This document shows positions 3,190-48,905 of a stretch of DNA of 64,000 nt, in pieces (the first letter of the stretch is position 1; every line of letters begins with the position of its first letter). Location: contig NZ_CP121464.1 in assembly GCF_029690045.1 (NCBI RefSeq), positions 3,410,001-3,474,000 of the forward strand, read 5' to 3'. Source of the stretch: Janthinobacterium rivuli. GTDB lineage: Bacteria > Pseudomonadota > Gammaproteobacteria > Burkholderiales > Burkholderiaceae_D. The notes below the pieces were generated by a model that saw only the letters and a list, made by a program, of their open reading frames with translations, was not told where the DNA came from and did no database searches. A program made the position numbers and the translations under genes.

Positions 3190-4689
3190 CTACGGTTTTG
3201 TCAGGCGCTTTTCTTTCTTCCTGAGCAGATACGGCACCAGCGCCGCCAGCGCCACGGCCAGCAGCGCCAGGCCGAGCAGCAGCTGGCGGAAGGCGGCGTC
3301 ATAGCTGGCGCGCAGCAGCGCTTCCTGGCCGCCCAGCAGCTGTGTCGCCTGCTCGATATCGCCGAGCGCGGCGCGGCTGGCGGCGGCCAGCACAGGTAGC
3401 TCGGCTGGTAGTTGCTGCGCCAGGCCCGCGCCGATCAGGCCGGCCAACAAGGAACCCGCCAGCGCCAGCGCCACCCCGTCGGCGCTGACGCGCACGGTAT
3501 TGAAGATGCCCGTCGCCATGCCGGCCCGCTCCGTTTCCACCACGCTCAGGGCCATGCCATCCATCAAGCCCCACGGCAAGCCGATGCCCACGCCGATCAG
3601 CAGCAGGGGGCCTGCCAGCGCCGCGGTGCCGCCATGGCCCAGCACCTGCGCCAGCCAGGCCAGGCCCGCCGCGGCCAGCAGCAGGCCCGCCGCGCACAGG
3701 GCGCCCGTCTCGACCCAGCGCGACAGCAGCGCCGCCAGCATGGGCACGAGCAGCAGCGGCGCTGCCAGGGCGATCATCAAACGGCCCGCCGCCAGTGCGG
3801 ACATGTTGTCGATGCCGATGAAGCGCCCCGGCAGCATGACGATCAGCACGATGAACAGGAAGGCGGGCGAGGCGGCCAGCACTTGCACGGCGACAAAGCG
3901 GCGCTGGCGGAACAGCGACAAATCCAGCATGGGCCGCGCCGTCCTGCGCTCGATGGCGCCAAAGGCAAGGAACAGCAGCACGGATGCGGCGACGGACAGC
4001 AGCACGGCGCCGTGGCGCCAGCCGTGTTCGGGCGCCAGCAGCATGCCCAGGGTCAGCAGGCCCAGCGCGGCGCTGAAGCTGATGGCGCCAGGCCAGTCCA
4101 GCCGGCCCTGGCCGCGCGCCGGATCGGCCGGCACGCTGACCCATACCAGCAGCATGCCGATGGCGCCCAGCACGGCCGTGGCGTAAAAGATGGCGGGCCA
4201 GCGGGCCAGCGCCAGCATGGCGCCGGCCGCCAGCGGACCGAAGGCCAGGCCCAGGCCGAACGTCGTGCCCAGCACGCTCATCACGCGGCTGCGCGCCGCG
4301 CCGTGGAACAATGGCGCCAGCGACGACATGGCGGCGGCGAACGCGGCCGCGCCGCCCAGGCCCTGCACGAAGCGCAGCACGGCGATCCATGCCACCGATG
4401 GCGCGTGGGCGATGGCCAGGGTCGCCACGCAAAACAGCGCCAGGCCCGCCAGCCAGACGCGGCGCCGTCCCAGCACATCCGTCAGGCTGCCGGCCACCAT
4501 CATGGCGCTGCCATAGCTGAGGATATACGCATTGATGACCCAGTTCAGGGCGGCGGCGCTGCCGTGCAATTCGGCGCCGAGGGCGGGCAGGGCCACGGCC
4601 GGGCCCGTGAAGCACAGGGGAATCAGCAAGCCCGTCAGGCAAGCGGCCAGCACTTGCAGGGGGAGTGAAAGACGTGAGGAAGAGGGCAT
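3190..4689 (-). CDS. MFS drug/proton antiporter, DHA2 (EmrB/QacA) family
   Basis: A 499-residue polytopic protein with the length and roughly 14 hydrophobic segments expected of DHA2 exporters. Motif A is seen as G-S-L-T-D-V-L-G-R-R-R near residue 70. Motif C-like glycine- and proline-rich sequence (G-L-A-F-G-P-L-A-A-G) lies in helix 5. Such proteins expel toxic organic compounds using the proton gradient. The start at 4689 gives a normal N-terminus ahead of membrane segment 1; the frame stays open further upstream, but that stretch has no family character. The gene is divergent from a LysR regulator 109 bases away, the usual layout of a regulator controlling its neighbouring exporter. Confidence 0.88.
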   Translation of the reverse strand: MPSSSRLSLPLQVLAACLTGLLIPLCFTGPAVALPALGAELHGSAAALNWVINAYILSYGSAMMVAGSLTDVLGRRRVWLAGLALFCVATLAIAHAPSVAWIAVLRFVQGLGGAAAFAAAMSSLAPLFHGAARSRVMSVLGTTFGLGLAFGPLAAGAMLALARWPAIFYATAVLGAIGMLLVWVSVPADPARGQGRLDWPGAISFSAALGLLTLGMLLAPEHGWRHGAVLLSVAASVLLFLAFGAIERRTARPMLDLSLFRQRRFVAVQVLAASPAFLFIVLIVMLPGRFIGIDNMSALAAGRLMIALAAPLLLVPMLAALLSRWVETGALCAAGLLLAAAGLAWLAQVLGHGGTAALAGPLLLIGVGIGLPWGLMDGMALSVVETERAGMATGIFNTVRVSADGVALALAGSLLAGLIGAGLAQQLPAELPVLAAASRAALGDIEQATQLLGGQEALLRASYDAAFRQLLLGLALLAVALAALVPYLLRKKEKRLTKP

Positions 4690-7271: not shown

Positions 7272-10200
7272 ATGACTGAAAAATTTGCATCGCACACTTC
7301 CACTGCCGCAGATGACGGCATTTCCGCCATCGAGGCATACCTGGACAGTGCCGCCGCCGCGGCGCTGCAGCGCTTCACCGGCACGCCGGATGCCGATGTG
7401 CTCAGCGGCACCGCAGGCGCCGACTTGCTCGAAGGCCTGGCCGGCGACGATACGTATTACGTCAACGACAGCGGCGACGTGATTGTCGAGCTGGCCAATG
7501 GCGGCACCGATACCGTTTATACCAGCGTTAACTACACGGTGGCCGACAACGTTGAGAACGTGCGCCTCGCCGCCAGCGGCCTGACGGTGACGGGCAGCGC
7601 CAACACCAACAATATCTTTCATGTGAGCGTGGCCGGCGGCAATGTGCTCGACGGTGGCGGCACGGGCAACTCGGTCAATTACCTTGGCTCCAGCACAGGC
7701 GTGACGGCCACCCTGTCCGGGGCCAGTGGTCCGGTGGCGGCAGCGCCGGGCAGCGATGTGCTGGTCAATTTCGCCAGCATCGTGGGCAGCAAGTTCGACG
7801 ACGTCCTGACCGGCAATGAACTCAAGAACCTCCTGATTGGCGGCATCGGCAACGACACCTTGCGGGGCGGCAAGGGCGACGATACGCTGTTCGGCGTAGC
7901 GGGCGACGATACCTATATTTTTGCCCGCGGTGACGGCGCCGATATCATCTCCGAGGTGGTCGAGGGCGGCGGCCACAATGTCGTTTCCTTCCTGGCCGGC
8001 GTCAGCGCCGACCAGTTGTGGTTCCGCCAGGTGGGCGCGAACCTGGAAGTGAGCACCATCGGCACGAGCGACAAGATCAGCATCAACGGCTGGTTCAGCG
8101 CGGGCAGCGCGCCCCGCATCCAGGAATTCCGCACGGCCGACGGCCGCGTGCTGCTGGGCAGCGACGTGCAAAACCTGGTGCAGGCGATGGCCGCACTGCA
8201 GCCGCCACCGGCTGGCCAGCTGACTTTGCCAATCTACGCAGCCACCGTCCTGGCTCCCGTGCTGGCGCAGAACTGGCGCACGGAAGGACCGAATCAGCCC
8301 GGCAACGGCGTCTTCACTGGCACGGCGAATCCGGACATCATCAAGGGCACGGCGGGCGCCGATGTGATGGCGGGCCTGGCCGGCGACGACATTTATTACG
8401 TCAACCATGGCTACGACGTGGTGACCGAACAGCCTGGCGGCGGCCGCGACACTGTCTACACGACGGTCAGCTACACCATGGGCGCCAACATCGAAGAGGT
8501 GCACCTGGCCGCCGCGGGCGTGGGTGTGACAGGTAACGGCAGCGGCAACGTCTTTCACGTCGACGTTGCTGGCGGCAACTTGTTGTATGGCATCGGCAGC
8601 AATAATTCGGCTACTTACGCGGGTTCCAAGGCGGGCGCCACGGCGACCATCGTTCCCGTCGTCGGCGGTAGCGCGCTCTTGCCTGGCAGCGATGTGCTGG
8701 TCAATATTTCCAGCGTGACAGGCAGTGCCTATGACGACGTGCTGATCGGCAACGAACTGGCCAACACCCTGTCTGGCGGGCTCGGCAACGATACCTTGCA
8801 AGGCGGCAAGGGCGACGATGTGCTGACTGGCGGCCTGGGCGATGATACCTATGTCTTTGCGCGCGGCGACGGCGCCGACGTCATCATCGAAGCGTCCGCC
8901 GATGCCAATTACGACGCCATCGCCTTCCTGGCCGGCGTCAACATCGACCAGCTGTGGTTCCGCCAGGTGGGCGCGGACCTGGAAGTGAGCACCATCGGCA
9001 CGACGGACAAGATCACCATCCGCGCCTGGAACAAGGCTGCGCCGAACATCGAGGAATTCCGCACGGCCGCCGGCCACGTCCTGCGCGGCGCCGACGTGCA
9101 ACTGCTGGTGCAGGCGATGGCGACCCTGGCGCCGCCGCCGCTGGGCCAGCTGACCCTGCCGGCGGGCACCGCCGCCGCCCTGGCGCCCGTGCTGTCCCAG
9201 GCCTGGCACTTCAACGGCCCCACGCAGTTGACGGAGCAAACCTTTGTCGGCACGGAAAATGCCGACATCATCAAGGGCACGGCCGGCGCCGACCTGATGG
9301 AAGGCCTGGGCGGTGACGACACCTATCACGTCAACCACAGTGGCGACTTCATCGTCGAACGGGGCAATGGCGGCAGCGACACCGCGTTTACCACGGTCAA
9401 CTACACGGTGGCCGACAATGTCGAGAATGTGCGCCTCGGCGCCCCTGGCCTGACGGTGACGGGCAGCGCCTTCACCAACAACGTCTTTTTCGTCACTACC
9501 CCCGGCGGCAATGTGCTCGACGGCGGCGGTGCGGGCAACACGCTCAATTACGTCAATGCAAGCGCTGGCGCGACGGTTGCCTTCGCACCCGCAGGCACGG
9601 CCCTGGCGGCGCGTCCGGGCGTGGATGTGGCGGCCAATTTCATCGCGGTTGTCGGCAGCAAGTTCGATGACGTGTTGATCGGCAATGAACTGAAGAACAC
9701 CCTGCTGGGAGTCCTGGGCAACGATATCTTGCAAGGCGGCAAGGGCGACGACATCCTGGCTGGTGTGCTGGGCAACGACACCTATATCTTCGCCCGCGGC
9801 GACGGCGCCGACTTGATCAACGAGGCCAACGAGGCGGGCAGCCGCGATGTCGTGTCCTTCCTGGCCGGCGTCAGCGCCGAGCAGCTGTGGTTCCGCCAGG
9901 TGGGCACGGCTCTGGAAGTGAGCACCATCGGCACCAGCGACAAGATCACCGTCACCGGCTGGTACGAGAGCGCGGAGCGGCGCATCGAGGAATTCCGCAC
10001 GGCCGACGGCAAAGTCTTGCTGGGCAGCCAGGTGCAAAACCTGGTGCAGGCGATGGCTGGCCTGACGCCGCCGCCAGCCGGCCAGCTCACTCTGCCTGCC
10101 GGCACGGCCGCCATCCTGGCGCCGGTGCTGGCGCAAAACTGGCGCGCCGCTCCACAAGCGGCTGGCGCCAGCCAGGGCGGCTTCAGCGGCTGGCAAGCGG

Positions 10201-10316
10201 ATGCCGCGCAACTGGTGCAAGCGATGGCCGGCTTTGCCGTGCCGGCGGCCGCATCGGCACCGTGGTCGGCGCAAGGCGGCTCGTCCACGCAGATCCAGCT
10301 GGCGGCAGCGCATTAA
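7272..10316 (+). CDS. RTX-type calcium-binding secreted protein made of three tandem units
   Basis: A 1014-residue acidic protein built from three units beginning near residues 35, 348 and 658. Each unit carries an N-terminal RTX block (such as G-T-A-G-A-D-L-L-E-G-L-A-G-D-D), a beta-rich region, a second RTX block (G-G-x-G-N-D-T-L-x-G-G-K-G-D-D), the haemolysin-related segment around Q-L-W-F-R-Q-V-G, and a tail L-V-Q-A-M-A followed by a P-P-P / G-Q-L-T-L-P stretch. RTX nonapeptides bind calcium and fold after export. There is no signal peptide and no enzyme domain. The next three genes encode a complete type I secretion machine, so it is almost certainly its substrate. The cysteine-free, repeat-only design suggests a surface or matrix protein more than a toxin. 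Confidence 0.88.
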   Translation: MTEKFASHTSTAADDGISAIEAYLDSAAAAALQRFTGTPDADVLSGTAGADLLEGLAGDDTYYVNDSGDVIVELANGGTDTVYTSVNYTVADNVENVRLAASGLTVTGSANTNNIFHVSVAGGNVLDGGGTGNSVNYLGSSTGVTATLSGASGPVAAAPGSDVLVNFASIVGSKFDDVLTGNELKNLLIGGIGNDTLRGGKGDDTLFGVAGDDTYIFARGDGADIISEVVEGGGHNVVSFLAGVSADQLWFRQVGANLEVSTIGTSDKISINGWFSAGSAPRIQEFRTADGRVLLGSDVQNLVQAMAALQPPPAGQLTLPIYAATVLAPVLAQNWRTEGPNQPGNGVFTGTANPDIIKGTAGADVMAGLAGDDIYYVNHGYDVVTEQPGGGRDTVYTTVSYTMGANIEEVHLAAAGVGVTGNGSGNVFHVDVAGGNLLYGIGSNNSATYAGSKAGATATIVPVVGGSALLPGSDVLVNISSVTGSAYDDVLIGNELANTLSGGLGNDTLQGGKGDDVLTGGLGDDTYVFARGDGADVIIEASADANYDAIAFLAGVNIDQLWFRQVGADLEVSTIGTTDKITIRAWNKAAPNIEEFRTAAGHVLRGADVQLLVQAMATLAPPPLGQLTLPAGTAAALAPVLSQAWHFNGPTQLTEQTFVGTENADIIKGTAGADLMEGLGGDDTYHVNHSGDFIVERGNGGSDTAFTTVNYTVADNVENVRLGAPGLTVTGSAFTNNVFFVTTPGGNVLDGGGAGNTLNYVNASAGATVAFAPAGTALAARPGVDVAANFIAVVGSKFDDVLIGNELKNTLLGVLGNDILQGGKGDDILAGVLGNDTYIFARGDGADLINEANEAGSRDVVSFLAGVSAEQLWFRQVGTALEVSTIGTSDKITVTGWYESAERRIEEFRTADGKVLLGSQVQNLVQAMAGLTPPPAGQLTLPAGTAAILAPVLAQNWRAAPQAAGASQGGFSGWQADAAQLVQAMAGFAVPAAASAPWSAQGGSSTQIQLAAAH
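7374..10160 (+). repeat. Three tandem coding repeats of about 930-940 bp
   Basis: Units begin at 7374, 8313 and 9243, each opening with the F-x-G-T codons before the first RTX block. The spacing is 939 and 930 bases. Long stretches are near-identical between copies, for example the codons for W-F-R-Q-V-G and for E-V-S-T-I-G-T. A truncated fourth tail (L-V-Q-A-M-A-G-F) closes the gene. Confidence 0.85.
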
Positions 10317-10406: not shown

Positions 10407-12586
<2,180 letters not shown>

Positions 12587-12590
<4 letters not shown>

Positions 12591-13930
12591 GCGCCGGCCA
12601 CCGCCTGGCCGCGTATGGCGAGCTGTTGCAACGCTACGCCCAGGTGCTGCGGCACAGCTGGCGTAACCGCGCCGCCTTGAGCGGCCCCGTGCTCAGCGAA
12701 GACGAGGCGGCCTTTTTGCCGGCCGCGCTGGCGCTGCAGGAGCGGCCCGTGTCGCCGTCCTTGCGCCTGACGGCCCGGGTGCTGATGCTGCTGGTTGCCT
12801 GCGTGCTGCTGTGGGCGGTCTTCGGCCAGGTCGACATCATCGTCAACGCGGCCGGCAAAATCATTCCGTCCGGCAACACCAAGACCATCGCTTCCGTCGA
12901 TGTGGCGGCCGTGCGCGCCCTGCATGTGCGCGAGGGGCAAGCCGTGCAGGCGGGCCAGCTGCTGGTGGAACTCGACAGCCGCGGCCCGGATGCCGAGCGC
13001 GACAAGGCCGCCGGCGACGCCGTGGCGGCCGCGCTGCAAATGGCCCGCTCGCGCGCGCTGATCGCCGCCGTCGACAGCTTGGCGCTGCCAAGGCTGGCGG
13101 CGCCCGACGGTGCGTCTGTCGCCCAGCGCGAGGAAGCGCAGGGCCACCTCGACGGCCAGTATGCGAGTTTCCGCGCCAGGCTCGCGCTTCTCGATGGCGA
13201 AATCGCCCGCTACGCCCAGGCGCTGCCATTGGCCGCGCAGCGCGCCGGCGACTACAAGGCGCTGCTGGCCACGCGCGACGTGGCCGAACACGCGTGGCTG
13301 GAAAAGGAACAGGCGCGCATCGACCTGGCCGGCCAGCTGGCGTCGGCCCGCAGCGAGCGCGCGGCCCTGGTGGCGCAAACGCGCAAGGATGCCTACGACG
13401 CGCTGACGGAAGGGGCCAGGGTGGTGGCGGCCAGCGACCAGGATGCGCGCCGCGCCGGCGCCCGCGGCAGCTTGCTGCGCCTGACGGCGCCCGTCGATGG
13501 CACGGTGCAGCAACTCAAGCTGCATACGGTGGGTGGCGTGGTGCCGGCCGCGCAGGCGCTGATGCAGATCGTGCCGCGCCAGGGCAGGCTGGAAATCGAC
13601 GCCGTGCTGGAAAACCGCGACGTCGGCTTCGTGCAGGAAGGGCAGATGGTCGCCATCAAGGTCGACGCCTTCGACTACACCAAGTATGGCACCGTGCCCG
13701 CCGTCGTCAGCAGCGTCTCGCGCGACGCCGTCGAGGATGAAAAAAAGGGTCCCGTGTATGCCGTCAGGATCACGCTGCAGCAGCCATCCATCGTCATCGA
13801 CGGCAGATTGGTGCCGCTGTCGGCCGGCATGGCCGTGCGCGCGGAAATCCGCACGGGGACGAGGCGGGTGATCGAATACGTGCTCTCGCCGCTGGTGCAG
13901 CACCAGAAGGAGGCGCTGCATGAACGCTAG
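12587..13930 (+). CDS. Type I secretion periplasmic adaptor (HlyD family)
   Basis: A 447-residue membrane fusion protein with a short cytoplasmic N-terminus, one membrane helix near residues 62-85, then lipoyl/beta-barrel halves flanking a helical hairpin. The lipoyl half-motif V-R-E-G-Q-A-V-Q-A-G-Q-L-L follows the helix, and the C-terminal half contains G-M-A-V-R-A-E-I. It links the ABC exporter to the outer-membrane channel. The start is a GTG that overlaps the exporter stop in GTGA, with AGGGG upstream. Confidence 0.93.
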
Positions 13931-15305
13931 ATGCCGCGCCATGGCCGCCATCGCCATCGCCGCCAGCTTGCTGCTGGCCAGTGCTGCGGCGCAGGCGCAA
14001 TCGCCGGGCGGGCTCGATGCCGCGCCATGCCCGTCCGCGTATGAGGCTGGTGTGCTGCTGACCGTGCCATTGACCTTGCCGGCGGCCGTCGACCTGGCCC
14101 TGTGCCGCAACGCGCAGGTGCACGGCGCCTGGGCCGGCATCCGGCTGCAGGCGGCCGGCCTGGGCGAGGCAAAGGCCGCCTTTTTGCCGACCCTGAATGC
14201 GGGCCTGAGCCGGGTGCACGACCGCACGGCTTATCCGGGCGCCAGCACGCCTTCCGGCAGCTTGAACAGCAATACGGGTTCGCTGAATCTGTCCTGGCGT
14301 TTGTTCGACTTTGGCGGGCGCGCGGCGGGCCAGCGTTCGGCGCAAGCCTTGCTGGACGCGGCCCTGGCCAACCGCGACGCCGTGCTGCAAAAGACGCTGG
14401 CGGCCACCGTCAGCGCGTATTTCGAGGCGCAGACGGCGCGGGCAAATGTGCGCATGCGCCAGGACTACGCGGCCCTGGCGAATGAAACGGTGCTGGCCAC
14501 GCAGCGCCGCGCCCAGCGGGGCCTCGGCTCGCTCAGCGACACCCTGCAGGCGACCAGCGCGCTGGCCAAGGCGGCCCTGGGCGCCAGCCGCGCCGATGGC
14601 GAGTTCCAGAAGGCGCGCGCCGTGCTCGTCTATACGCTGGGCTTGCCGGCGGAGGCGGGCGTGGTCCTGGACGACGATGCGGATGCCCCGGTGGCGGGCT
14701 TGAGCGAAGATTTGCACACCTGGCTGGCGCTGGCCCAGGCGCGGCACCCGGCCATCGTGGCCGCGCAGGCGCAGCTGGCGGCCGCGCGCGAACGGGTGGC
14801 CGTGACCGAGTCGGAAGGCCGTCCCAGCATCGACCTGACGGCCAATATCTACCAGAACGGCCGCCCCAACCAGGGCTTGTCCGCCGCCTCCACGCGCGAA
14901 ACCCTGGTGGGCATCGCATTGAACATTCCCCTGTTCGACGGTTTTGCGCGCCATTACAAGGTGCGCGGCGCCTTGGCGCAGGCCGGGCAAAGGGAAGCGG
15001 AAGCCGAGGAAGTGCAGCAGCAGACCCTGATGGAGCTGGTGAAAACGCATGCGGAGGCGAGCACGGCCTTGGCCAACCTGGCCGCCTCGCAAACGTGGCT
15101 GGACGCGGCGCGCGATGCCCAGGCCAGCGTGCAGCGCAAGTTCGGTCTGGGCGCGGCCGATATCCTGGAAATGCTGAACACGCAGTCGGCGCTGCTCGAG
15201 GCGCAGCAGGAGCGCATTCGTTGCCAGGCGGAATGGCGCTCGGCCCGGTTGCGCCTGCTTGCCAGCGCCGGCGTGCTGGGGCGCGAGGCTATTCCTGGAC
15301 GGTAA
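13920..15305 (+). CDS. Type I secretion outer-membrane channel (TolC family)
   Basis: A 461-residue protein with a Sec signal peptide (cleavage near A-A-A-Q-A-Q at about residue 27) and two outer membrane efflux protein repeats of coiled-coil helices and strands, the TolC layout. Typical segments are N-L-S-W-R-L-F-D-F-G-G-R in the first half and N-I-P-L-F-D-G-F in the second. It completes the tripartite secretion path. The ATG lies 11 bases inside the end of the adaptor gene, which indicates translational coupling and one operon. Confidence 0.93.
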   Translation: MNARCRAMAAIAIAASLLLASAAAQAQSPGGLDAAPCPSAYEAGVLLTVPLTLPAAVDLALCRNAQVHGAWAGIRLQAAGLGEAKAAFLPTLNAGLSRVHDRTAYPGASTPSGSLNSNTGSLNLSWRLFDFGGRAAGQRSAQALLDAALANRDAVLQKTLAATVSAYFEAQTARANVRMRQDYAALANETVLATQRRAQRGLGSLSDTLQATSALAKAALGASRADGEFQKARAVLVYTLGLPAEAGVVLDDDADAPVAGLSEDLHTWLALAQARHPAIVAAQAQLAAARERVAVTESEGRPSIDLTANIYQNGRPNQGLSAASTRETLVGIALNIPLFDGFARHYKVRGALAQAGQREAEAEEVQQQTLMELVKTHAEASTALANLAASQTWLDAARDAQASVQRKFGLGAADILEMLNTQSALLEAQQERIRCQAEWRSARLRLLASAGVLGREAIPGR

Positions 15306-17671: not shown

Positions 17672-18409
17672 ATGCCTGAAAACCTTATCCCCCAAGTACC
17701 GCAACCGGACGACGCCGTCGTCGGCAAGGAAGCGGGCGCGCAGATGCTGGCCACGGCCTGCGCCGCGCGCGACGCCTTTTATGCCACCCTGGGCGCCATG
17801 GACGCCGACGTGCTGGCGCCGCTGGTCAATCCGGCCTTCATGGGAGGCCCGCGCTGGCCCTCGTTGCGCCAGGCCTGGCGGGTGATCCGCCGGCCTGACT
17901 CGATTCTCATCGCCAGCGATGGCTTGAGCGACCCGTTCGAGGATGACGACGACGTGTTCGTGCCGCGCGGCCATTTGCTGGAAGTGTGCATCGAGGCGCC
18001 GTTGTCCGCCTTCGATGGCGATCCCGTGCAGGCATCGTGGCTCTTCGACCTCGTTTACCAGGTCAGCCAGAACGTGGCCGATCACGGCTCCATCGATTTG
18101 CTGGTGCAGCGCCACGGCAGCGTGTCGATGGTGCTCGACTTGCAAGATGCACCAAACGGGCTGGAAGACGAAAACGAACAGGTGGGCGTGCTGCTGGCCC
18201 AGGGCGCAAGCACCATTCCTCCATCGTTCGACACGCCGTATGGCGAAGTGATGCTGCTCACTCTTACCGTGCTGCAGCCGGCCGAACTGGCGTACATCAG
18301 CGAAGCGGAAGACAAGGCGCAGTCGCGGCGTGACCTGGCCGCCGCGCTGGCCGCGTCGCCGACCGGGCATTGGAGCGTGGCCGCGCGGCCTAGTGTTATT
18401 TTCACTTAA
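17672..18409 (+). CDS. Suppressor-of-fused (SUFU)-like domain protein
   Basis: A 245-residue soluble acidic protein. Segments resembling the SUFU domain are S-D-G-L-S-D-P-F, L-L-E-V-C-I-E-A-P, the late L-L-T-L-T-V-L-Q-P-A-E-L-A-Y-I, and a C-terminal H-W-S-V-A-A-R-P-S-V. Bacterial SUFU domains are often immunity-type or binding proteins; no toxin gene lies next to it here. It follows the DUF6678-like gene closely and ends at the border of the AT-rich island. The family call is moderate and function is inferred only. Confidence 0.5.
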   Translation: MPENLIPQVPQPDDAVVGKEAGAQMLATACAARDAFYATLGAMDADVLAPLVNPAFMGGPRWPSLRQAWRVIRRPDSILIASDGLSDPFEDDDDVFVPRGHLLEVCIEAPLSAFDGDPVQASWLFDLVYQVSQNVADHGSIDLLVQRHGSVSMVLDLQDAPNGLEDENEQVGVLLAQGASTIPPSFDTPYGEVMLLTLTVLQPAELAYISEAEDKAQSRRDLAAALAASPTGHWSVAARPSVIFT

Positions 18410-18911
18410 AGTTGGTTTAACTGCAGAAAATAATATACATCAATGCAATACATCCGCCAGATAGGGGCGCAGGGAATTGTTTACATTCCAAGCTCACCGA
18501 AAAAAACATCATAGTCGTTTAAAATTTTAAAAAGTTTTCAAAAATGCTATTTAAAAGTGGTATAGTGATTTTTAAATTTCAAATATTTTCTCCTGAGCAT
18601 AAAATCTTTCATTTGGTAAAAATATCTTATTTGCTCTAGTGGATGTAAATATTTCCAATGATGGAGTAATGCACTGCTTTTACGTGAATAATTAAGTATT
18701 TTTAAATGTTTTCATTTTAATAATTTTAATAGCTGCATAATTAATGAGGTTTTAATGCAATGCTTATCGAATAATGTGGGTATTTTTAGATCAATTCAAT
18801 TTATTTGATATTTAAAATAATTTCCTATTTTGATGGCGCGTCGAAGTGATGGCTTCGAAATTCTTGCGCGACTTTATTTGTGATTGAAAAATACTTTCCT
18901 AGGAGGCGGTA
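18410..18911. other. AT-rich non-coding stretch ahead of the NACHT gene
   Basis: About 500 bases of strikingly AT-rich DNA, marking the left edge of a foreign island. No protein gene of normal length is seen. A 16-codon frame (ATG 18833, stop 18881) lies in a short GC-richer patch that also forms a hairpin: CGCG (18837-18840) and TCGAAG (18841-18846) pair with CTTCGA (18853-18858) and CGCG (18867-18870). The ribosome site AGGAGG at 18900 sits just downstream. The region probably holds the NACHT gene promoter. Confidence 0.5.
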
Positions 18912-21740
18912 ATGCTTGCGCAGCGCAAAGAATTACTTATAAAAAAAATTCAGGATATGTCGGAGTTGGATTTTACAAAAAAAATTCTAATGCCGCTGTT
19001 TACTTCTTTGGGATATGCAGTCAATTATAATGGCGGGGCAAGCGAACGTGGAAAAGATCTCATTTGCAAAAAAGACGGGGAATTTGGAAGTGTAGAATTA
19101 ACCGTAGTTCAAGTGAAGAAAACTCGACCTAATGCTGTCGCCTCTGATAGTAGAAGTTTATCAGAAATTATCACCCAGCTTCAGCAAGCTTCGGAAGAAA
19201 ACGTGCCATTGATATCAGGAATTTATCAAAAGCCCAATAAGGTGTATTTTATTACTCCTTTTGAAATAGATGTGCGTGCGTTAGAATCACGCTTTGCAGC
19301 ACTAGCAGCTCTCTCATTAAAAAATGTGAGAGTTCTTGATGGCCCATTAATTGTCGATTCGCTTCAAAGGCAGTTGCCACATTTGGCTGATGCTATCTGC
19401 GGTGATGAGTTTGTTATTAAGTCTGGAGCATTGGCCGGGCTATCAAATTCCGATTTGTTAAGTGCTCTAAATTATGCAAATGAAAAAGAAATATCTGACT
19501 TTTATTGTGATCTTGACTTTAGTGTGGGTAGAATAACTAGCAAGTTGTTTTTTGCCCTTAATTTTGCGCCGCGAAAAATTCAGCAAAGTATAACAGGGAT
19601 TCGCTGGGGCTCTTTATGTGAGAAATTTAGGATATTTACTAAGGCGACTGGCCGAGAATTAATTGAGCCATCAATTGCCGATGTTGAAATTAACTTTGAG
19701 AAAAAGTGGAAACTTTGGGAATCCCAGGAGAATCGAGAGTTATTGAGAAGTATTTGGGTAACTGTCGATGAAATTGAAAATCTTCTTAAGTTTATTATTG
19801 ATGAGGCCGGCGATATTGTTGAGACAGTTTTCTTATTAAGTAGTCCTAATGCTGTATTTTCAACAAAAAAAATTCGAGATCTCTCAGATGATGAATATTA
19901 TCGATTATCACAGTTACGATTGGTTCGGACTAGCCTTGAAGGGCAGCATGCAAATTGGTTTGCAAGTACGGAAATAAATTCAGAGAAAATACTGAAAATA
20001 GGCGAAATAATTACTGCAGCCGAGTTACATATTGAGGCGTTGCGTGATGATAATGTTGTTCTTAATGCAATCGCGGCAACTCGACTAACGGCACTTCTGA
20101 AAAATGTTGTACAGCTTAATGATTTATTTAATCGTCTTGAAATTGCAGCAGCTTCGAAAGTTTCAGAGCCAACCTTTGATTTTACAATAGATGGTAGCGT
20201 AGTTGCAGGTGCTCTGATTGAATATAGAAAGTGGGTAACTGAAGGAGCCGATAGTTTAGCCGTAGGTGGCGAACAGCGAGAAAAGGTCAGGTTGTATTTC
20301 TTGAGGTGTCAAGAAATTTTTGAACTTGTGGAATTGGTACTATCCGAGAAACTGTTTGCCGATGCAGCGGGTGTGGATGATACACAAAAATTTGCAATAG
20401 TAGCGGCCGGGCAGCGGATTCATTTGCCGCTAAAAGATGTTTTTGCAACGGGCATACACTGTGCTGTATACGGTGAAGCTGGTGCAGGAAAATCAACAAC
20501 TTTACACCGATATGCTAGCTCTGCGGCATCAAGTGATAAAGCCGACGAGATAACTCTTTGGATTCCATTAACACGTATCCTACACCGAGATGAATCCTAT
20601 GATAATGATGAGATTTCTGGGATAAGTAAATTGGAGCGTGCCATATCGAAGTTTTTTGGTGGCGGAGCAGCTATTCATGAAAATGAAGTAATTCCACTAA
20701 TAAAATCTAAAAAGCGTGCCGTATTTATATTTGATGGGATAGATGAGGTAATAAGGCGATCACCATGGATTATTTTGGCGATACAAGAAGTGTGCGTAAA
20801 ATATAATAATTGCCAAGTTATTGTTTCTGCTCGATCAACTGGAAGTTATCCAGAACTTAGGAATTTCTTAGGCCTTACACTCTTGCCGTTCAATGACGAA
20901 CAGGTTTCAAGCTTTGTAAATGGATGGTTCAAAGAAGATGTTGAGATGGGTTGTGATGTAGTCAAACATCTTGCAAAAGTACATAGTGTTGCTGAAATAG
21001 TTCGGAATCCTTTACTCGCAACAGTTCTGTGTGTGTTGGCAGAAAATAAAGTTCCTTTGCCGAGTGGCGAACTAGCCATGTACGAGGAAAGAATGAAGCT
21101 ATTACTCGGACACTATGATATACACAAAAAAACAAGAAGACTTCATAGTCATCATTCTTTGCTCGAGACAACTGCACGCCAAATTGCTTTTCAACTTCAT
21201 ATACAAAATATACGATCAGTTTCAGTTGAATCATTAGAGACATTTGCAATCCGTGGGCTCGATTCCGTAGTGCCAAAGATAAGTTATGAGGCAATAAGGA
21301 AAGCCGTGAATGAATTAATTGATCCATGTAACATATTGGTTCCAATGACTGATGAGGGCGCTTTTGGATTTGGACATTTACGTTATCAGGAATTTTTGAG
21401 CGCAAAAGAGCTTCATAATAATCGTAGTATCGACATACTTCCTTTGCTTACTTCCTCATGGTGGCGCCCCGTTATCGTATTGTTTTGTAGATTGGGTGGT
21501 AAAGTTGACTTTATAATTAATGAGGTTATTGGGAAGGAACATACTGTAGATAAATATAAAGATACACTACTTGCTATTATTGCAACTAGGGGAAAGAATG
21601 AGCAGCGATATCTAAAAGGTTTAATCTCGGAACATCAACGAATGGATGCATTGAATGATAATTTTCGGGATCTTTCTGATTCATCTTCTGATTTCGACGA
21701 TATTGATTCTTTAGGAATTGATTTTGATAGACGTTATTAA
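18912..21740 (+). CDS. NACHT-domain STAND NTPase with N-terminal PD-(D/E)xK nuclease-like domain
   Basis: A 942-residue protein. Residues 1-150 resemble an Mrr-type restriction endonuclease: E18 in a helix leading to I-L-M-P-L-F, then G-K-D49-L, then Q67-V-K69, the E...D...QxK pattern. A long helical middle part follows. The NACHT ATPase has Walker A G-E-A-G-A-G-K-S-T (521-529) and Walker B F-I-F-D-G-I-D-E (D608, D611, E612). The post-NACHT region contains G-F-G-H-L-R-Y-Q-E-F-L-S-A-K, typical of these proteins, with only a short acidic C-terminus and no long repeat sensor. Such proteins sense invaders and activate an effector, here presumably DNA cleavage. Codon use is strongly AT-rich compared with all neighbours. 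AGGAGG precedes the ATG. An anti-phage role is inferred. Confidence 0.85.
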   Translation: MLAQRKELLIKKIQDMSELDFTKKILMPLFTSLGYAVNYNGGASERGKDLICKKDGEFGSVELTVVQVKKTRPNAVASDSRSLSEIITQLQQASEENVPLISGIYQKPNKVYFITPFEIDVRALESRFAALAALSLKNVRVLDGPLIVDSLQRQLPHLADAICGDEFVIKSGALAGLSNSDLLSALNYANEKEISDFYCDLDFSVGRITSKLFFALNFAPRKIQQSITGIRWGSLCEKFRIFTKATGRELIEPSIADVEINFEKKWKLWESQENRELLRSIWVTVDEIENLLKFIIDEAGDIVETVFLLSSPNAVFSTKKIRDLSDDEYYRLSQLRLVRTSLEGQHANWFASTEINSEKILKIGEIITAAELHIEALRDDNVVLNAIAATRLTALLKNVVQLNDLFNRLEIAAASKVSEPTFDFTIDGSVVAGALIEYRKWVTEGADSLAVGGEQREKVRLYFLRCQEIFELVELVLSEKLFADAAGVDDTQKFAIVAAGQRIHLPLKDVFATGIHCAVYGEAGAGKSTTLHRYASSAASSDKADEITLWIPLTRILHRDESYDNDEISGISKLERAISKFFGGGAAIHENEVIPLIKSKKRAVFIFDGIDEVIRRSPWIILAIQEVCVKYNNCQVIVSARSTGSYPELRNFLGLTLLPFNDEQVSSFVNGWFKEDVEMGCDVVKHLAKVHSVAEIVRNPLLATVLCVLAENKVPLPSGELAMYEERMKLLLGHYDIHKKTRRLHSHHSLLETTARQIAFQLHIQNIRSVSVESLETFAIRGLDSVVPKISYEAIRKAVNELIDPCNILVPMTDEGAFGFGHLRYQEFLSAKELHNNRSIDILPLLTSSWWRPVIVLFCRLGGKVDFIINEVIGKEHTVDKYKDTLLAIIATRGKNEQRYLKGLISEHQRMDALNDNFRDLSDSSSDFDDIDSLGIDFDRRY

Positions 21741-21777
21741 TTTTATTGACTTAATTGAAACTAGGATTTTTAACAGT

Positions 21778-22455
21778 TTACTTTGAAGGCGGGACGGGTA
21801 TCGGTTCTGACGGTTGTGTATCTTCACTAATCGGCGCGGGTGGCGGTTCTCTCCACTTGCCCGCCGCCTTCAGCTTGTTCTTCAGCCCTGGCAGAGGAAA
21901 ACCCAGCGCATAGGCTTTTTGCGCGTGCGCGCTGGCCTTGTCGTATTCCTTCTTTTTGACATACATCAGGCCCAGGTTGTACTGGATGGTGGCCTGCTCG
22001 GGCGCCAGGCGGCTGGCTGCGTCCAGCTGTTCCAGCGCCGTCGCATCCTGGCCCGTGGACAGCAGATAGCTGCCATACACCATGCGCGCCGTCACGTCGT
22101 GCGGCGCGAAGGCGATCGCCCGTTCGAAGTAGCAGCTGACCGTGTAGCGGGCGCCGGGCGGCTGCGCGCTTTTCAGACGCAGTCCCAGCTTGGCCATCGA
22201 CGCCAGCGCCCGGTGGTGGTTCGGGAAGTGTTCGAGCGTGTAGCTGATATCGGCGCCCAGGCTGCCCGTCATGCCTTGCGTGAGCGTTTCCACGGCCCGT
22301 GAAAAATGGAATTTCTCGACCACGGTCAAACCGGAACGGTCTTCCGCGCTCGTATAGTCGCCGCCCGGCGTGTGCTTGACGTAGGGTGGACAATCGGCGG
22401 CGTCGGCGCTGGCGCAGCAGGCGGCGAGGGCGCAGGCAAACAAGCAATGCTTCAT
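21778..22455 (-). CDS. Secreted TPR-repeat protein of the exopolysaccharide locus
   Basis: A 225-residue protein with a Sec signal peptide (residues 1-19, ending A-D-A-A) and two or three TPR-like helix pairs around residues 105-190, for example A-T-I-Q-Y-N-L-G-L-M-Y-V-K-K-K-E-Y-D-K-A. It ends in a proline-rich tail. It is probably periplasmic and may scaffold polysaccharide assembly. Its start overlaps the stop of the upstream glycosyltransferase (ATGA), so it is the last gene of that minus-strand operon. Confidence 0.75.
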   Translation of the reverse strand: MKHCLFACALAACCASADAADCPPYVKHTPGGDYTSAEDRSGLTVVEKFHFSRAVETLTQGMTGSLGADISYTLEHFPNHHRALASMAKLGLRLKSAQPPGARYTVSCYFERAIAFAPHDVTARMVYGSYLLSTGQDATALEQLDAASRLAPEQATIQYNLGLMYVKKKEYDKASAHAQKAYALGFPLPGLKNKLKAAGKWREPPPAPISEDTQPSEPIPVPPSK

Positions 22456-45733: not shown

Positions 45734-45882
45734 ACGCCCGGCGTGGCTAGCCTTCATTCTTTTGCGCGCCTGGATCCGCATTCACTGACAGGCCAGTACT
45801 TGTCAGGTGATCAATCTTGTAGAATTTTTTGTTCATTGGAAATAATAAATCAAACCAGAATCTCCATATTGAAAGAAAAACG

Positions 45883-46950
45883 ATGCTGCCACTGACAATA
45901 TCTGCACTTTCTTTTTTGTTGATGACATCCACATTCGTGACTGCCCAAGTTGGCGATCATTCACATGCGGAAAAGGAAGATGATTATTCCGCCAAGATCG
46001 ACAACTTGGTCAAATCAACAAGTCCTAGAAGCTTTAATGGCGTCATTCTCATCACGAAGAATGGCAAGGAGAAATACGCAAAAGCCTTTGGTTATTCTGA
46101 TGTTAAAAATAAAACACGGTTAAGGCTGGAAGATAATTTCCGAATCATGTCGAATAGCAAGCAAATTACGGCTGTGTTGATTTTGAGGGAAGTTGAAAAA
46201 GGCACGATAGACTTGCAAAGTCCCGTTAGAAGATATTTGCCCGATTTGCCGCAGGCCTGGGCCGACGAGGTGACGGTGCATCAACTGCTCAACTTTTCAG
46301 CAGGAATCACGGAAATCGACAAGCCACTCAGCTTCAAGCCCGGAACGGACTTTCTGTATGGCGTTACGACTTATTCAATGCTGAGCAATATTTTTGAAAA
46401 AGTCAGCGGAAAAGTCTATGTCGATGCAGCGCATGAGCTGTTCAGAGAGCTGGGGATGGTGAATAGTTTTTGCTATGAGGAAAACAAGAATAATAACGTC
46501 ATCAATGGATATGTCAACACGAAAAATGTATTCGCACTGAAGGAACATCCTGTTCAGGGAAAAGACTGGACAGGCTTCATCCCGGCAGGAGGAATTGTTT
46601 CAAATGTGAAGGACTTAAATATCTGGGATGAGAAACTTCATAAGGGGAAGATTTTAAAAGCCGAAACCTATAAGCTGATGACGAATTATTCCATATCCAG
46701 TCAGCACGTGGCTTTCGGTGACGGAGAAATCGGTTATGGTTACGGTGTTTATGTGAGTGACAAGGATACGGTCAAGTATATAGGCCATTCCGGGAAGGGC
46801 TTGGGCTTTGCCTCGATCAAAGTCTATTTCCCTGAAAAAGATGTTGATGTCATTGTTTTGGAAAATCAGTTTAGCGAAGATAGTGGCGTTCATTACCATT
46901 TCGAAATAAAAGTAAGGGAAATAGTAATGAACAGCAGCCTTTTGAAATAG
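45883..46950 (+). CDS. Serine hydrolase of beta-lactamase fold, AT-rich and probably acquired
   Basis: A 355-residue protein with a signal peptide and the penicillin-binding-like catalytic set S-N-S-K, a Y-G-V at the second motif and H-S-G-K-G at the third. A clearly lower GC content and lysine/asparagine-rich codon use set it apart from its neighbours and suggest transfer from a low-GC bacterium. The ATG at 45883 begins a good signal sequence; an in-frame ATG at 45829 would add 18 polar residues. It follows another serine hydrolase but is not similar enough to be a recent duplicate. Confidence 0.78.
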   Translation: MLPLTISALSFLLMTSTFVTAQVGDHSHAEKEDDYSAKIDNLVKSTSPRSFNGVILITKNGKEKYAKAFGYSDVKNKTRLRLEDNFRIMSNSKQITAVLILREVEKGTIDLQSPVRRYLPDLPQAWADEVTVHQLLNFSAGITEIDKPLSFKPGTDFLYGVTTYSMLSNIFEKVSGKVYVDAAHELFRELGMVNSFCYEENKNNNVINGYVNTKNVFALKEHPVQGKDWTGFIPAGGIVSNVKDLNIWDEKLHKGKILKAETYKLMTNYSISSQHVAFGDGEIGYGYGVYVSDKDTVKYIGHSGKGLGFASIKVYFPEKDVDVIVLENQFSEDSGVHYHFEIKVREIVMNSSLLK

Positions 46951-47284
46951 CTGAACCTCCGCGCATCATCCGTTTCGCAAGGTGCTGGCTGTGTTCCTGC
47001 AATCACGCTCGGCCGAAGAGTGTTGGTGAAGGCCATACGCTAACGCGAAGCTGTCTTGGCCGTTTTGACTTCCACCATGCTGCCAGCACTGTCACACGTT
47101 ACAGCGGCGCATATGCCGGCGACAGTGGCAGGCTCGATTGCAGTGCCAATGCCAGTTCCGCGCCGTCATGCGCCAATGAGAGAATAAAAGTGGCATCGGC
47201 TTTATATTGCATGTTTTTCCTTGTTTTGCCTTGTAAGTTGGGTGCAATTAAAAATACAATACAAGAAAATTACCAAGGGGAAAT
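46951..47284. other. Intergenic region with a possible 37-codon gene
   Basis: About 330 bases without a normal gene. No terminator or insertion-sequence end was recognised. The minus strand carries one short frame from 47212 to 47099 with an AAGGA five bases before its ATG, listed separately. AAGGGG at 47275 serves the next plus-strand gene. Confidence 0.4.
47099..47212 (-). CDS. Possible 37-residue small protein
   Basis: A short frame starting M-Q-Y-K-A-D-A-T-F-I-L-S-L and ending P-A-Y-A-P-L. It is divergent from the YaaW-like gene and has AAGGA at good spacing. There is no known family and it may be chance or the remnant of a longer gene. Confidence 0.25.
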   Translation of the reverse strand: MQYKADATFILSLAHDGAELALALQSSLPLSPAYAPL

Positions 47285-48025
47285 ATGGGTATTAAATATC
47301 GCGTCGATGAAGACCTCGTATTCCTGCAGTATTGCAAGGAAGAGGATTTGCGTATTTTGGCTGGCTATCTCACGCACGACAAAGATCAGTCGGCTCGCAT
47401 GGCCAGCGAACTTCTTGCAGATGATAACTTCAAGAAGTTTGCTGGAAAGACGGACCAGTACCGGCAATGCTGGCAGTTGATTGCCGGCGAGCTTCAGCAT
47501 TTCGGCGGCGACACTATCGTCAACCTGTTTCGTGGCGATGGCGTGTTGTACAAGGAGATTTTGTCGGACGTGTGCGATAACCAGAAAGTCAAAACGGAAA
47601 AAAACAGTTCCGCCTATGCGATGGAAAACAAGCTGCTGGAGAAATTCATCGGCGATGCCTGGGAAAAGCTCGGTGCGGAACAACGCGCTTCGCTGCTGAA
47701 GGAATTTGATATCGGCTACAACTCACGCGATGGGGAAGGATTGGCCTTGCTGAAAGCGGCCTTGTTGAGTGGCATCGGTTCCCTGCAAATATCTTCGCTG
47801 ATTGCCAGATCCGCTGCAAGCATGTTCGCGGGACGGGCGCTTGGCGTCATTGCGACAGGTGGTCTGGGCAGAAGCCTGGCCATGTTTGCCGGTCCTGTCG
47901 GATTGGCCGTATCGGCCGCGCTCACCGTGCCCGCAATCAGCGGCGCCGCTTATCGGGTAACGATTCCTGCCGTCATTCAAATCGCTTATATGCGCCGAGA
48001 ATGTGAAGCACGTGAATTTTTCTAA
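47285..48025 (+). CDS. YaaW/UPF0174-family protein
   Basis: A 246-residue protein resembling E. coli YaaW. Shared features are the opening D-L-V-F-L-Q-Y-C-K-E-E-D-L, the L-T-H-D-K motif, W-Q-L-I-A-G-E-L-Q-H-F-G-G-D near residue 62, and the C-terminal G-A-A-Y-R-V-T-I-P-A-V-I-Q-I-A. Two hydrophobic glycine/alanine-rich stretches near 160-225 could insert into a membrane. The family has no established function. It is followed by a gene 10 bases downstream with a good ribosome site, so the two form an operon. Confidence 0.88.
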   Translation: MGIKYRVDEDLVFLQYCKEEDLRILAGYLTHDKDQSARMASELLADDNFKKFAGKTDQYRQCWQLIAGELQHFGGDTIVNLFRGDGVLYKEILSDVCDNQKVKTEKNSSAYAMENKLLEKFIGDAWEKLGAEQRASLLKEFDIGYNSRDGEGLALLKAALLSGIGSLQISSLIARSAASMFAGRALGVIATGGLGRSLAMFAGPVGLAVSAALTVPAISGAAYRVTIPAVIQIAYMRRECEAREFF

Positions 48026-48035
48026 GGAAGTATAA

Positions 48036-48905
48036 ATGCTGCAAGAAACAATATGGATCATCGACCAGGCAAAATTGAAGCCAGTGTTGATACAAGCGAT
48101 GGCGGAAGGCAAGGCAGCCATACATGACGGCGTGGCATACTGGGCCGAGGGCAGCGGCGGGTCTGGCATCATCCAGCATCTTCCATTCAAGGAAAGTGCG
48201 GCCAAGAGCGTGGAAGAAGCGCTGAAAATGGCGCAGGCGACGACGGTGATCGCCGCAGCCGTGTCGACCGGCATTATTCTTGCCGCGATCGTGGTGCAGA
48301 CAAAATATTTGGCAAAGAAACTGGATAAAATCCAGGCCGCTGTCGATGTCATTGCGCAAGATGTGCGGTCGCAACACATTGTATTTTACATGGGTAAGAT
48401 CAGTGAATATGTAGGACTGGTAGAGGCAGCGCGAACCTTGTTGCAGGATCGTAGCCTGGCATCGGAAATACGTGAGCTTGCCATTCCGCTGTTGACCAGC
48501 ATGGCGGCGAAACGCAATGAAATCCTGTCCTTTATCGATAATATTCTTGCCATGGCGAAGTCGTCCAAAGACGTGTCCCCAACGCATTTAACGTCGATCA
48601 CCAATTTCGCCCAATTAATGCTCGACATGATGCCCGCGGGAATTCATATCGAATATCTGCTTTGCGCGCGTATTGGCAAACTGCGGCTTGCAGAACATAT
48701 CCTGCTCGATGGTGCGGGGCGATTCAACGATGGTTTGCAAGTTTTCCGTCGGTTCATGAATGGTTTACATCAAGAAATGATACGCGGTGGTGCCGGAGCG
48801 CGCAGCGAGGTTTATCGCTCGCTTGAAGCAAATGCGAGGCAGCTTTTCCAATCCGAGCACGGGAAAATTCTGCTGTCGCTGCCTGCGGGCCGCGCTGCCA
48901 GCTAA
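48036..48905 (+). CDS. Unknown membrane-associated protein paired with the YaaW-like gene
   Basis: A 289-residue protein with no recognised family. A single strong hydrophobic segment lies near residues 68-88 (A-T-T-V-I-A-A-A-V-S-T-G-I-I-L-A-A-I-V-V), followed by K-K-L-D-K-I-Q-A-A-V-D-V-I and a long mainly helical C-terminal part that could form coiled coils. AAGGA precedes the ATG. Its tight link to the YaaW-like gene suggests the products work together, perhaps at the inner membrane. It ends exactly at the border with the convergent glycosyltransferase-ligase fusion gene. Confidence 0.7.
   Translation: MLQETIWIIDQAKLKPVLIQAMAEGKAAIHDGVAYWAEGSGGSGIIQHLPFKESAAKSVEEALKMAQATTVIAAAVSTGIILAAIVVQTKYLAKKLDKIQAAVDVIAQDVRSQHIVFYMGKISEYVGLVEAARTLLQDRSLASEIRELAIPLLTSMAAKRNEILSFIDNILAMAKSSKDVSPTHLTSITNFAQLMLDMMPAGIHIEYLLCARIGKLRLAEHILLDGAGRFNDGLQVFRRFMNGLHQEMIRGGAGARSEVYRSLEANARQLFQSEHGKILLSLPAGRAAS

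Follow-up and report, generated by a model that had tools for sequence, protein, structure and literature searches.

How does a strongly AT-rich gene come to lie between GC-rich neighbours in Janthinobacterium rivuli, and what might its product do there? We addressed this in a stretch of 64,000 nucleotides (contig NZ_CP121464.1, positions 3,410,001 to 3,474,000; hereafter the window), in which an open reading frame (ORF) at 18912-21740 encodes a protein of 942 residues. An initial annotation had read the product as a nuclease-NACHT protein of the STAND class (signal transduction ATPases with numerous domains), encoded by a single gene in an island-like setting and a candidate for antiphage defence. 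Sequence comparison supports that reading. Our analysis yielded the architecture of the protein, its conserved catalytic and switch residues, its homology to a bNACHT32-type protein, the mobility of its gene and its pattern of divergence, and from these we infer that the gene probably encodes a horizontally mobile antiphage STAND receptor, complete in one gene and mechanistically of the bNACHT25/32 kind, with an antiphage role, DNA cleavage and oligomerisation. The features on which the argument draws are as follows.

18410-18911, forward strand: AT-rich upstream part of the island, 29% GC, with no match in an Rfam search and no ORF of its own longer than 48 aa
18901-18906, forward strand: Shine-Dalgarno-like AGGAGG, 5 nt upstream of the ATG, read by eye
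18912-21740, forward strand: gene for the Mrr-type nuclease-NACHT STAND protein, 942 aa (ORF with ATG start; Pfam)
18912-19406, forward strand: residues 1-165, predicted PD-(D/E)xK nuclease (Mrr_cat; MspJI/AspBHI/FokI-like), from an Mrr_cat score of 23.4 bits, invariant columns and structure matches
19407-19556, forward strand: residues 166-215, well-conserved segment of DFYCDLDF type at the nuclease-to-middle joint (56-76% identity among the window protein, L002 and L003)
19557-20411, forward strand: residues 216-500, helical middle module, proposed sensor or relay (divergence, predicted helices, no family match)
20412-21011, forward strand: residues 501-700, NACHT NTPase core (PF05729) with Walker A at 521-529 (K527) and Walker B at 608-612
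21012-21401, forward strand: residues 701-830, helical and winged-helix part; its FGH822LRYQE holds the counterpart of the switch histidine H506 of bNACHT25/32
21402-21737, forward strand: residues 831-942, conserved C-terminal end of short length with an acidic tail, in which NCH1 was not detected

The ORF, the putative catalytic residues E18, D49 and Q67xK69, the Walker A lysine K527 and the Walker B stretch all lie where the initial annotation had placed them. The NACHT match (PF05729, residues 517-675) reached E = 3.5e-10 and 40.4 bits against a cut-off of 26.7, and the relatives L002 and L003 also scored above that cut-off. K527 was conserved in 5/5 and D608 and E612 in 6/6 of the alignment rows covering them, and Walker A, Walker B and an FGHxRxQE motif containing H822 were found in all five full-length members (the window protein, L002, L003, L079 and L080). 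With a NACHT domain above the curated cut-off and an N-terminal effector domain, the protein resembles the bacterial NACHT (bNACHT) proteins; its nuclease sets it apart from bNACHT clade 14 (the SNaCT type), which has no discernible effector domain.

The nuclease assignment rests on profile scores, invariant residues and predicted structure. Isolated N-terminal domains scored 23.4 (window, residues 1-170), 27.2 (L003) and 34.2 bits (L013) for Mrr_cat (PF04471) against a gathering cut-off of 21. E18, D49, Q67 and K69 were conserved in all six alignment rows covering them, and these residues, named before any alignment was made, are four of only nine invariant columns (E18, F30, G34, E45, G47, D49, Q67, K69 and Q89) in an eight-row nuclease alignment, whose rows are not wholly independent because L063 and L090 were found with profiles containing those residues. 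An AlphaFold2 model of residues 1-510, built on this number of rows (mean predicted local distance difference test score, pLDDT, 76.2; predicted template modelling score, pTM, 0.49), was searched with Foldseek. Six of the 50 rows listed were confined to residues 1-164, namely two entries each for FokI and MspJI and one each for AspBHI and AF1548, the last being of unknown function; the corresponding list for the full-length model had 7 of its 50 rows confined to residues 1-192, all of them restriction endonucleases. Residues 1-164 are therefore predicted to fold like the cleavage domains of MspJI, AspBHI and FokI, and the N-terminal PD-(D/E)xK fold on which the initial annotation depended is indeed indicated by both the Mrr_cat score and the predicted fold matches. 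Several results weigh against these assignments. Mrr_cat was not reported for the whole window protein at E <= 1, the isolated N-terminal domain of L002 gave no Mrr_cat match, and whole L079 and L080 remained under the cut-offs for both Mrr_cat (18.2 and 20.4) and NACHT (19.8 and 22.4). Few sequences underlie the structure models (5 and 8, giving mean pLDDT 63.8 and 76.2 and pTM 0.36 and 0.49), and plain Foldseek gave no match at E <= 0.001 for either.

MspJI, AspBHI and FokI are restriction enzymes that carry their own DNA-reading domains and have no STAND NTPase. Since the predicted structure of residues 1-164 resembles, among others, AspBHI and MspJI, which are modification-dependent, the nuclease domain itself might sense modified or damaged DNA in the manner of an Mrr-type type IV restriction enzyme, with the NACHT module serving only regulation or assembly. 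We consider this very unlikely: a single stretch of about 140-160 residues of the AspBHI/MspJI-type enzymes aligns, Pfam finds no further domain in the nuclease and middle pieces (DUF3920 at E 0.1 only), and every full-length member retains both the Walker motifs and the switch histidine.

The closest experimentally tested precedent is found in bNACHT25 and bNACHT32, which, in the portions of PMC12169576 drawn on here, have an N-terminal PD-(D/E)xK DNase, are antiphage by experiment and belong to clade 6. In the same portions, D48A abolishes defence, MS2 infection leads to DNA degradation, and H506L gives bNACHT25 trigger-free activity (PMC12169576). We compared the window protein with P0001, a 753-aa plasmid protein of Enterobacter kobei that has both D48 and H506. 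It adjoins VapC and VapB, whose accessions (WP_057688291/290) stand next to that of bNACHT32 (WP_057688292), and is here taken as a bNACHT32-type protein. BLASTP linked the two proteins through their NACHT parts at E 5e-7 and, weakly, through their nuclease parts at 0.008. Profile-profile comparison gave a probability of 99.7 and E 1.2e-26 over window residues 425-879, of which the first ~75 aligned residues precede NACHT and are doubtful. Catalytic D49 corresponds to D48 and winged-helix H822 to H506, so the combination of nuclease and NACHT is not new, and a G-x-S-E-x-G-x-D motif is common to the window protein and P0001; the window's Q67xK69 differs from V67, C68 and K69 in P0001. By this analogy the protein very probably works like bNACHT25/32.

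On that model, the NACHT module would at rest be ADP-bound and locked through H822 of the winged helix, with the Mrr-type nuclease kept inactive. Nucleotide exchange and oligomerisation would be triggered by a product of the phage or by a host protein that the phage disturbs; the nuclease domains would thereby be clustered and DNA cut at the active site formed by E18, D49, Q67 and K69. Phage replication would then stop, probably with loss of the infected cell.

The layout of the window protein departs from this precedent. Bacterial NLR-related proteins (NLR, nucleotide-binding leucine-rich repeat) are described as effector, NACHT and sensor from N to C terminus in the sections of PMC12169576 used here. 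In the branch that includes the window protein, the C-terminus is shortened, with no detectable NCH1, and a fast-diverging module of ~285 residues lies between effector and switch. The spacing from the nuclease D to the P-loop K is 478 residues in the window protein, 480 in L002, 481 in L003, 440 in L079 and 443 in L080, against 178, 184 and 201 in the short-link proteins P0001, P0002 and L063; some 300 residues have thus been added relative to the bNACHT32-type layout. Conversely, 120, 109, 102, 112 and 111 residues follow the switch histidine in the same five long proteins, against 247, 246 and 259 in the three short-link ones. C-terminal length has therefore been lost and middle length gained. 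NCH1 (PF22728) was absent from the whole window protein at E <= 1, from the C-terminal pieces of the window protein and L002 at E <= 10, and from L002, L003, L079 and L080 at E <= 0.01; P0001 and P0002 scored 127.4 and 135 bits. The profile-profile alignment stops at P0001 residue 563, and NCH1 of P0001 starts at 576. As the initial annotation had held, the region after NACHT is short and belongs to no Pfam repeat family, and the conserved 112-residue end of the window protein contains no domain recognised by Pfam. Its last 30 residues (913-942) are net negative, as they are in all five full-length members (D/E minus K/R of 6 in the window protein, 9 in L002, 3 in L003, 3 in L079 and 5 in L080).

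Other nuclease-bearing proteins do not share this arrangement. The 801-aa protein of G972 (L063/L081) likewise joins Mrr_cat (4.2e-6) to NACHT (2.5e-12) and has the same invariant nuclease residues, but with its P-loop lysine at residue 253 it has no room for a middle module; NCH1 was not found in its C-terminus at E <= 1 either, so NCH1 is not the sole tail of short-link proteins. The nuclease-STAND protein Avs4 (structure 8dgf_B) has 1534 residues and a long C-terminal sensor part, unlike the window protein with its 120 residues after the switch histidine, and the PADLOC matches of the latter included no Avs family model. We do not place the window branch in bNACHT clade 6 because no NCH1 was detected and the middle is long; the short nuclease-NACHT link is a feature of P0001 and P0002 only and not a published criterion of that clade. 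The initial annotation had called the effector/sensor combination unusual. The effector is already published in bNACHT25/32, and what is unusual is the long middle together with the shortened C-terminus without detectable NCH1. A limited literature search, with the founding bNACHT paper (Kibby and colleagues) outside it, did not find a layout of long middle and short tail described.

Is the middle module then the sensor? Among the window protein, L002 and L003, residues 216-500 are 24-28% identical, against 48-76% for the other main segments. Of the six main segments, the middle shows the lowest conservation in all 10 pairs of the five full-length proteins; the tail of 8-16 residues was compared apart from these segments and is lower than the middle in some pairs. 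Column permutation of the middle against three other segments gave p = 0.0005 in 9/9 tests, the smallest value attainable with 2000 shuffles and a descriptive result only, because neighbouring columns are not independent. The module had no Pfam match at E <= 10. Among 195 family genomes it matched in its own genome only, a miss that says little because G256 and G347 are absent from the matches and were presumably not drawn. From these patterns it is plausible, if somewhat short of probable, that the middle module took over sensing or relays it, and the length trade-off strengthens this interpretation. Slightly more tentatively still, the STAND layout may be inverted, such that the phage-facing sensor is the middle helical module and the trigger acts directly on the hinge between nuclease and NACHT.

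A contending explanation, which we also rate as quite possible but a little under an even chance, is that the middle is a mere stalk or oligomerisation scaffold and that sensing falls to residues 700-942 or to a host chaperone. The AlphaFold2 model of residues 1-510 predicts helices for the middle, and its matches among solved folds are helical bundles of a generic kind, perhaps reflecting only a common arrangement. The C-terminal part is conserved, at 48-59% identity among the window protein, L002 and L003. bNACHT25 depends on host DnaJ, and coat protein was not recovered with it by co-precipitation, according to the part of PMC12169576 consulted. The bNACHT32-type pair P0001 and P0002, which lacks the module, counts against the sensor interpretation. 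Their identity is 49% in the nuclease, 20% in the link, 37% in NACHT, 49% in the helical/winged-helix part, 30% in the following stretch and 33% in NCH1. The short link is thus the fastest-diverging segment, and NCH1 diverges faster than the nuclease and hardly faster than NACHT. Fast divergence beside the nuclease is therefore no mark of a sensor by itself, and in the window branch it may reflect relaxed constraint in a stalk. What speaks against a mere stalk is that no NCH1 was detected, that only ~60 residues extend beyond the part aligned with the bNACHT32-type profile, and that divergence is concentrated in a block of ~285 residues, far longer than the 55-residue link. The relocated sensor is kept alive by the length trade-off and the size of this block, although a relaxed stalk would look similar. 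In either case, a shortened C-terminus combined with a fast-diverging block beside the effector offers a testable case of how NLR-related receptors may change sensing, and the shared nuclease and switch of the window, L002 and L003 proteins make their middle modules comparable. An inverted layout, if true, would constitute a second topology for bacterial NLR-related receptors, distributed as cargo of mobile elements of several kinds, one of them casposon-like and encoding Cas1.

The nuclease-NACHT gene is horizontally mobile, since its flanking genes abut in almost all comparable sister loci and three of five relatives lie in or beside mobile-element genes. In the window, the island sits between two convergent genes, encoding a 245-aa protein without Pfam family and a 225-aa tetratricopeptide repeat (TPR)-like protein, the latter present in 39 of 40 genus genomes (own genome counted). 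We fetched 30 junction loci, or 29 without the window's own, and the left gene was visible in 26 of these. In 25 of the 26 the flanking genes run directly up to or into each other at their stops, with anything between an overlap of 14 bp and a gap of 21 bp; the left-gene match was incomplete in two of these empty junctions (L035 and L055). About 3.4 kb was therefore gained at this junction. In G256 the junction is empty (L030), yet this genome has its own nuclease-NACHT copy elsewhere, 1.0 kb from a tRNA-Leu gene. No convincing direct repeats or inverted ends flank the window insert. In the remaining one of the 26 loci, that of G295 (L041, 419-1473), the same junction holds a different, 1055-bp insert with a 266-aa EcsC-like ORF that scores 28.2 bits, just below the Pfam cut-off of 30.4.

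Base composition likewise marks the insert. The gene has a GC content of 0.385, with 0.284 at third codon positions (GC3), and the 0.5 kb before it has a GC content of 0.293; the flanks reach 0.644 and 0.691, and the neighbouring genes have GC3 values of 0.801 and 0.774. The AT-rich island is therefore real but larger than first claimed: it spans ~18,400-21,780, beyond the ORF and including the 0.5 kb upstream. Its composition was said to be unlike that of every neighbour, which holds for the immediate ones but not for the window as a whole, where a second low-GC stretch lies at 46-49 kb (0.43-0.53 per kb). The two closest full-length relatives are also AT-rich, at 0.374 and 0.43. Besides the ORFs of the left gene and of the nuclease-NACHT gene itself, the upstream region holds only ORFs of 21-48 aa. 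Promoter-like sites over 18300-21900 were not above chance (8 found, 10.5 expected), and an alignment of four loci revealed no obvious shared upstream sequence.

Among the five relatives whose neighbourhoods were read, two of the three in mobile-element settings also have toxin-antitoxin-like genes. In G1080 (L079), a Phage_GPA replication protein, an integrase, a HigB toxin with a helix-turn-helix (HTH) partner (HTH_3 22.5, cut-off 23) and then the nuclease-NACHT gene come right after a transfer-messenger RNA (tmRNA) gene. Sixteen bp near the 3' end of the tmRNA gene (3652-3667) recur at 11207-11222 (BLAST E 4e-4), 139 bp beyond the stop of the nuclease-NACHT gene, which is the last gene; because of this recurrence, a probable element of ~7.6 kb (L079:3652-11222) is suggested at the tmRNA gene. 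In G900 (L080), 136 bp separate the start of the nuclease-NACHT gene from a Cas1 gene upstream of it (PF01867, 2.7e-36). Nearby are, by reading, a 774-aa protein with PolB-type strings (DFTSQYPS, GDTDS) and a small HNH-like protein; Pfam gave a below-cut-off exonuclease match for the former and nothing for the latter. With Cas1 assigned by Pfam and the PolB-like and HNH-like proteins by reading, the neighbourhood (L080:2254-10870) appears casposon-like; terminal inverted repeats were sought in this stretch and none was found. Nitrosomonas sp. AL212 is named among genomes with casposon-type islands in the part of PMC4046053 consulted, and the word NACHT does not occur in the main text of PMC4046053 or PMC9939771. 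Such a receptor thus occurs both as cargo of an element at a tmRNA gene and, in a casposon-like setting, immediately after Cas1. In L013, a Hainich bin, the gene is preceded by a Y1 transposase, an ORF6N gene and genes that are PIN-like and MazE-like. The other two relatives stand among ordinary genes by ORF reading, which weighs against the proposed explanation: in Massilia norwichensis (L012) the gene is beside htpG with no mobile gene recognised, and in G256 (L058) a 12-bp tRNA-Leu stretch recurs after the gene at E 0.13, which is only suggestive. A conserved defence neighbourhood in homologues, which the initial annotation had named as a criterion, is not strictly kept, with three of five in mobile-element settings and two not.

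Such settings invite the thought that the main role of the protein is not antiphage but lies in shielding its carrier element from rival plasmids or elements, or in stabilising the carrier. The integrative element at the tmRNA gene, the Cas1 and PolB-like neighbours and the toxin-antitoxin-like genes near two of the five relatives fit such a role. We nonetheless regard it as unlikely, given that the ORF lists show no mobile-element gene beside the copies of the window and its two closest full-length relatives, and that the nearest tested relatives defend against phages in the portions of PMC12169576 used. Element protection and an antiphage role are not mutually exclusive.

The census behind these comparisons drew on sampled, overlapping genome sets, with no more than a few candidates scored in each genome. 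Full-length relatives were found in G256 and G347 among 392 family genomes, in G256 among 40 genus genomes, and in G900 and G1080 both in the set of 399 order genomes and in a set of 125 genomes from the family of G900; the remaining matches in the tally spanned the profile only in part. Neither 369 class genomes nor 349 phylum genomes held a full-length relative besides the own genome. Scanning genome contigs with a single protein returned no locus, and scanning with an alignment returned two, L012 (the G347 copy) and L013 in G760, which additionally holds a C-terminal piece. No relative was found in phages and viral contigs, and none of 50 plasmid records covered 80% of the query, the 40 matches listed all starting at residue 475 or later. 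In the order set, a match to residues 398-540 in G773 (E 9.6e-4) was taken as chance, the long ORFs there reading as asd-, leuB- and leuD-like. The own genome has four NACHT matches in all, two above cut-off; the second of these, L095, is no relative and reads as a KaiC-like double P-loop ATPase.

Elsewhere in the window, the second low-GC stretch (45829-48905) encodes a serine hydrolase with a beta-lactamase fold (PF00144, 5.6e-46), a protein with DUF3944 and one of 289 aa that matches no Pfam family. An internally repetitive protein at 7272-10316 resembles, by reading, a repeats-in-toxin (RTX)/Ca-binding protein, and with the genes for an ABC exporter, a membrane-fusion protein and an outer-membrane protein at 10407-15305 it reads as a type I secretion set.

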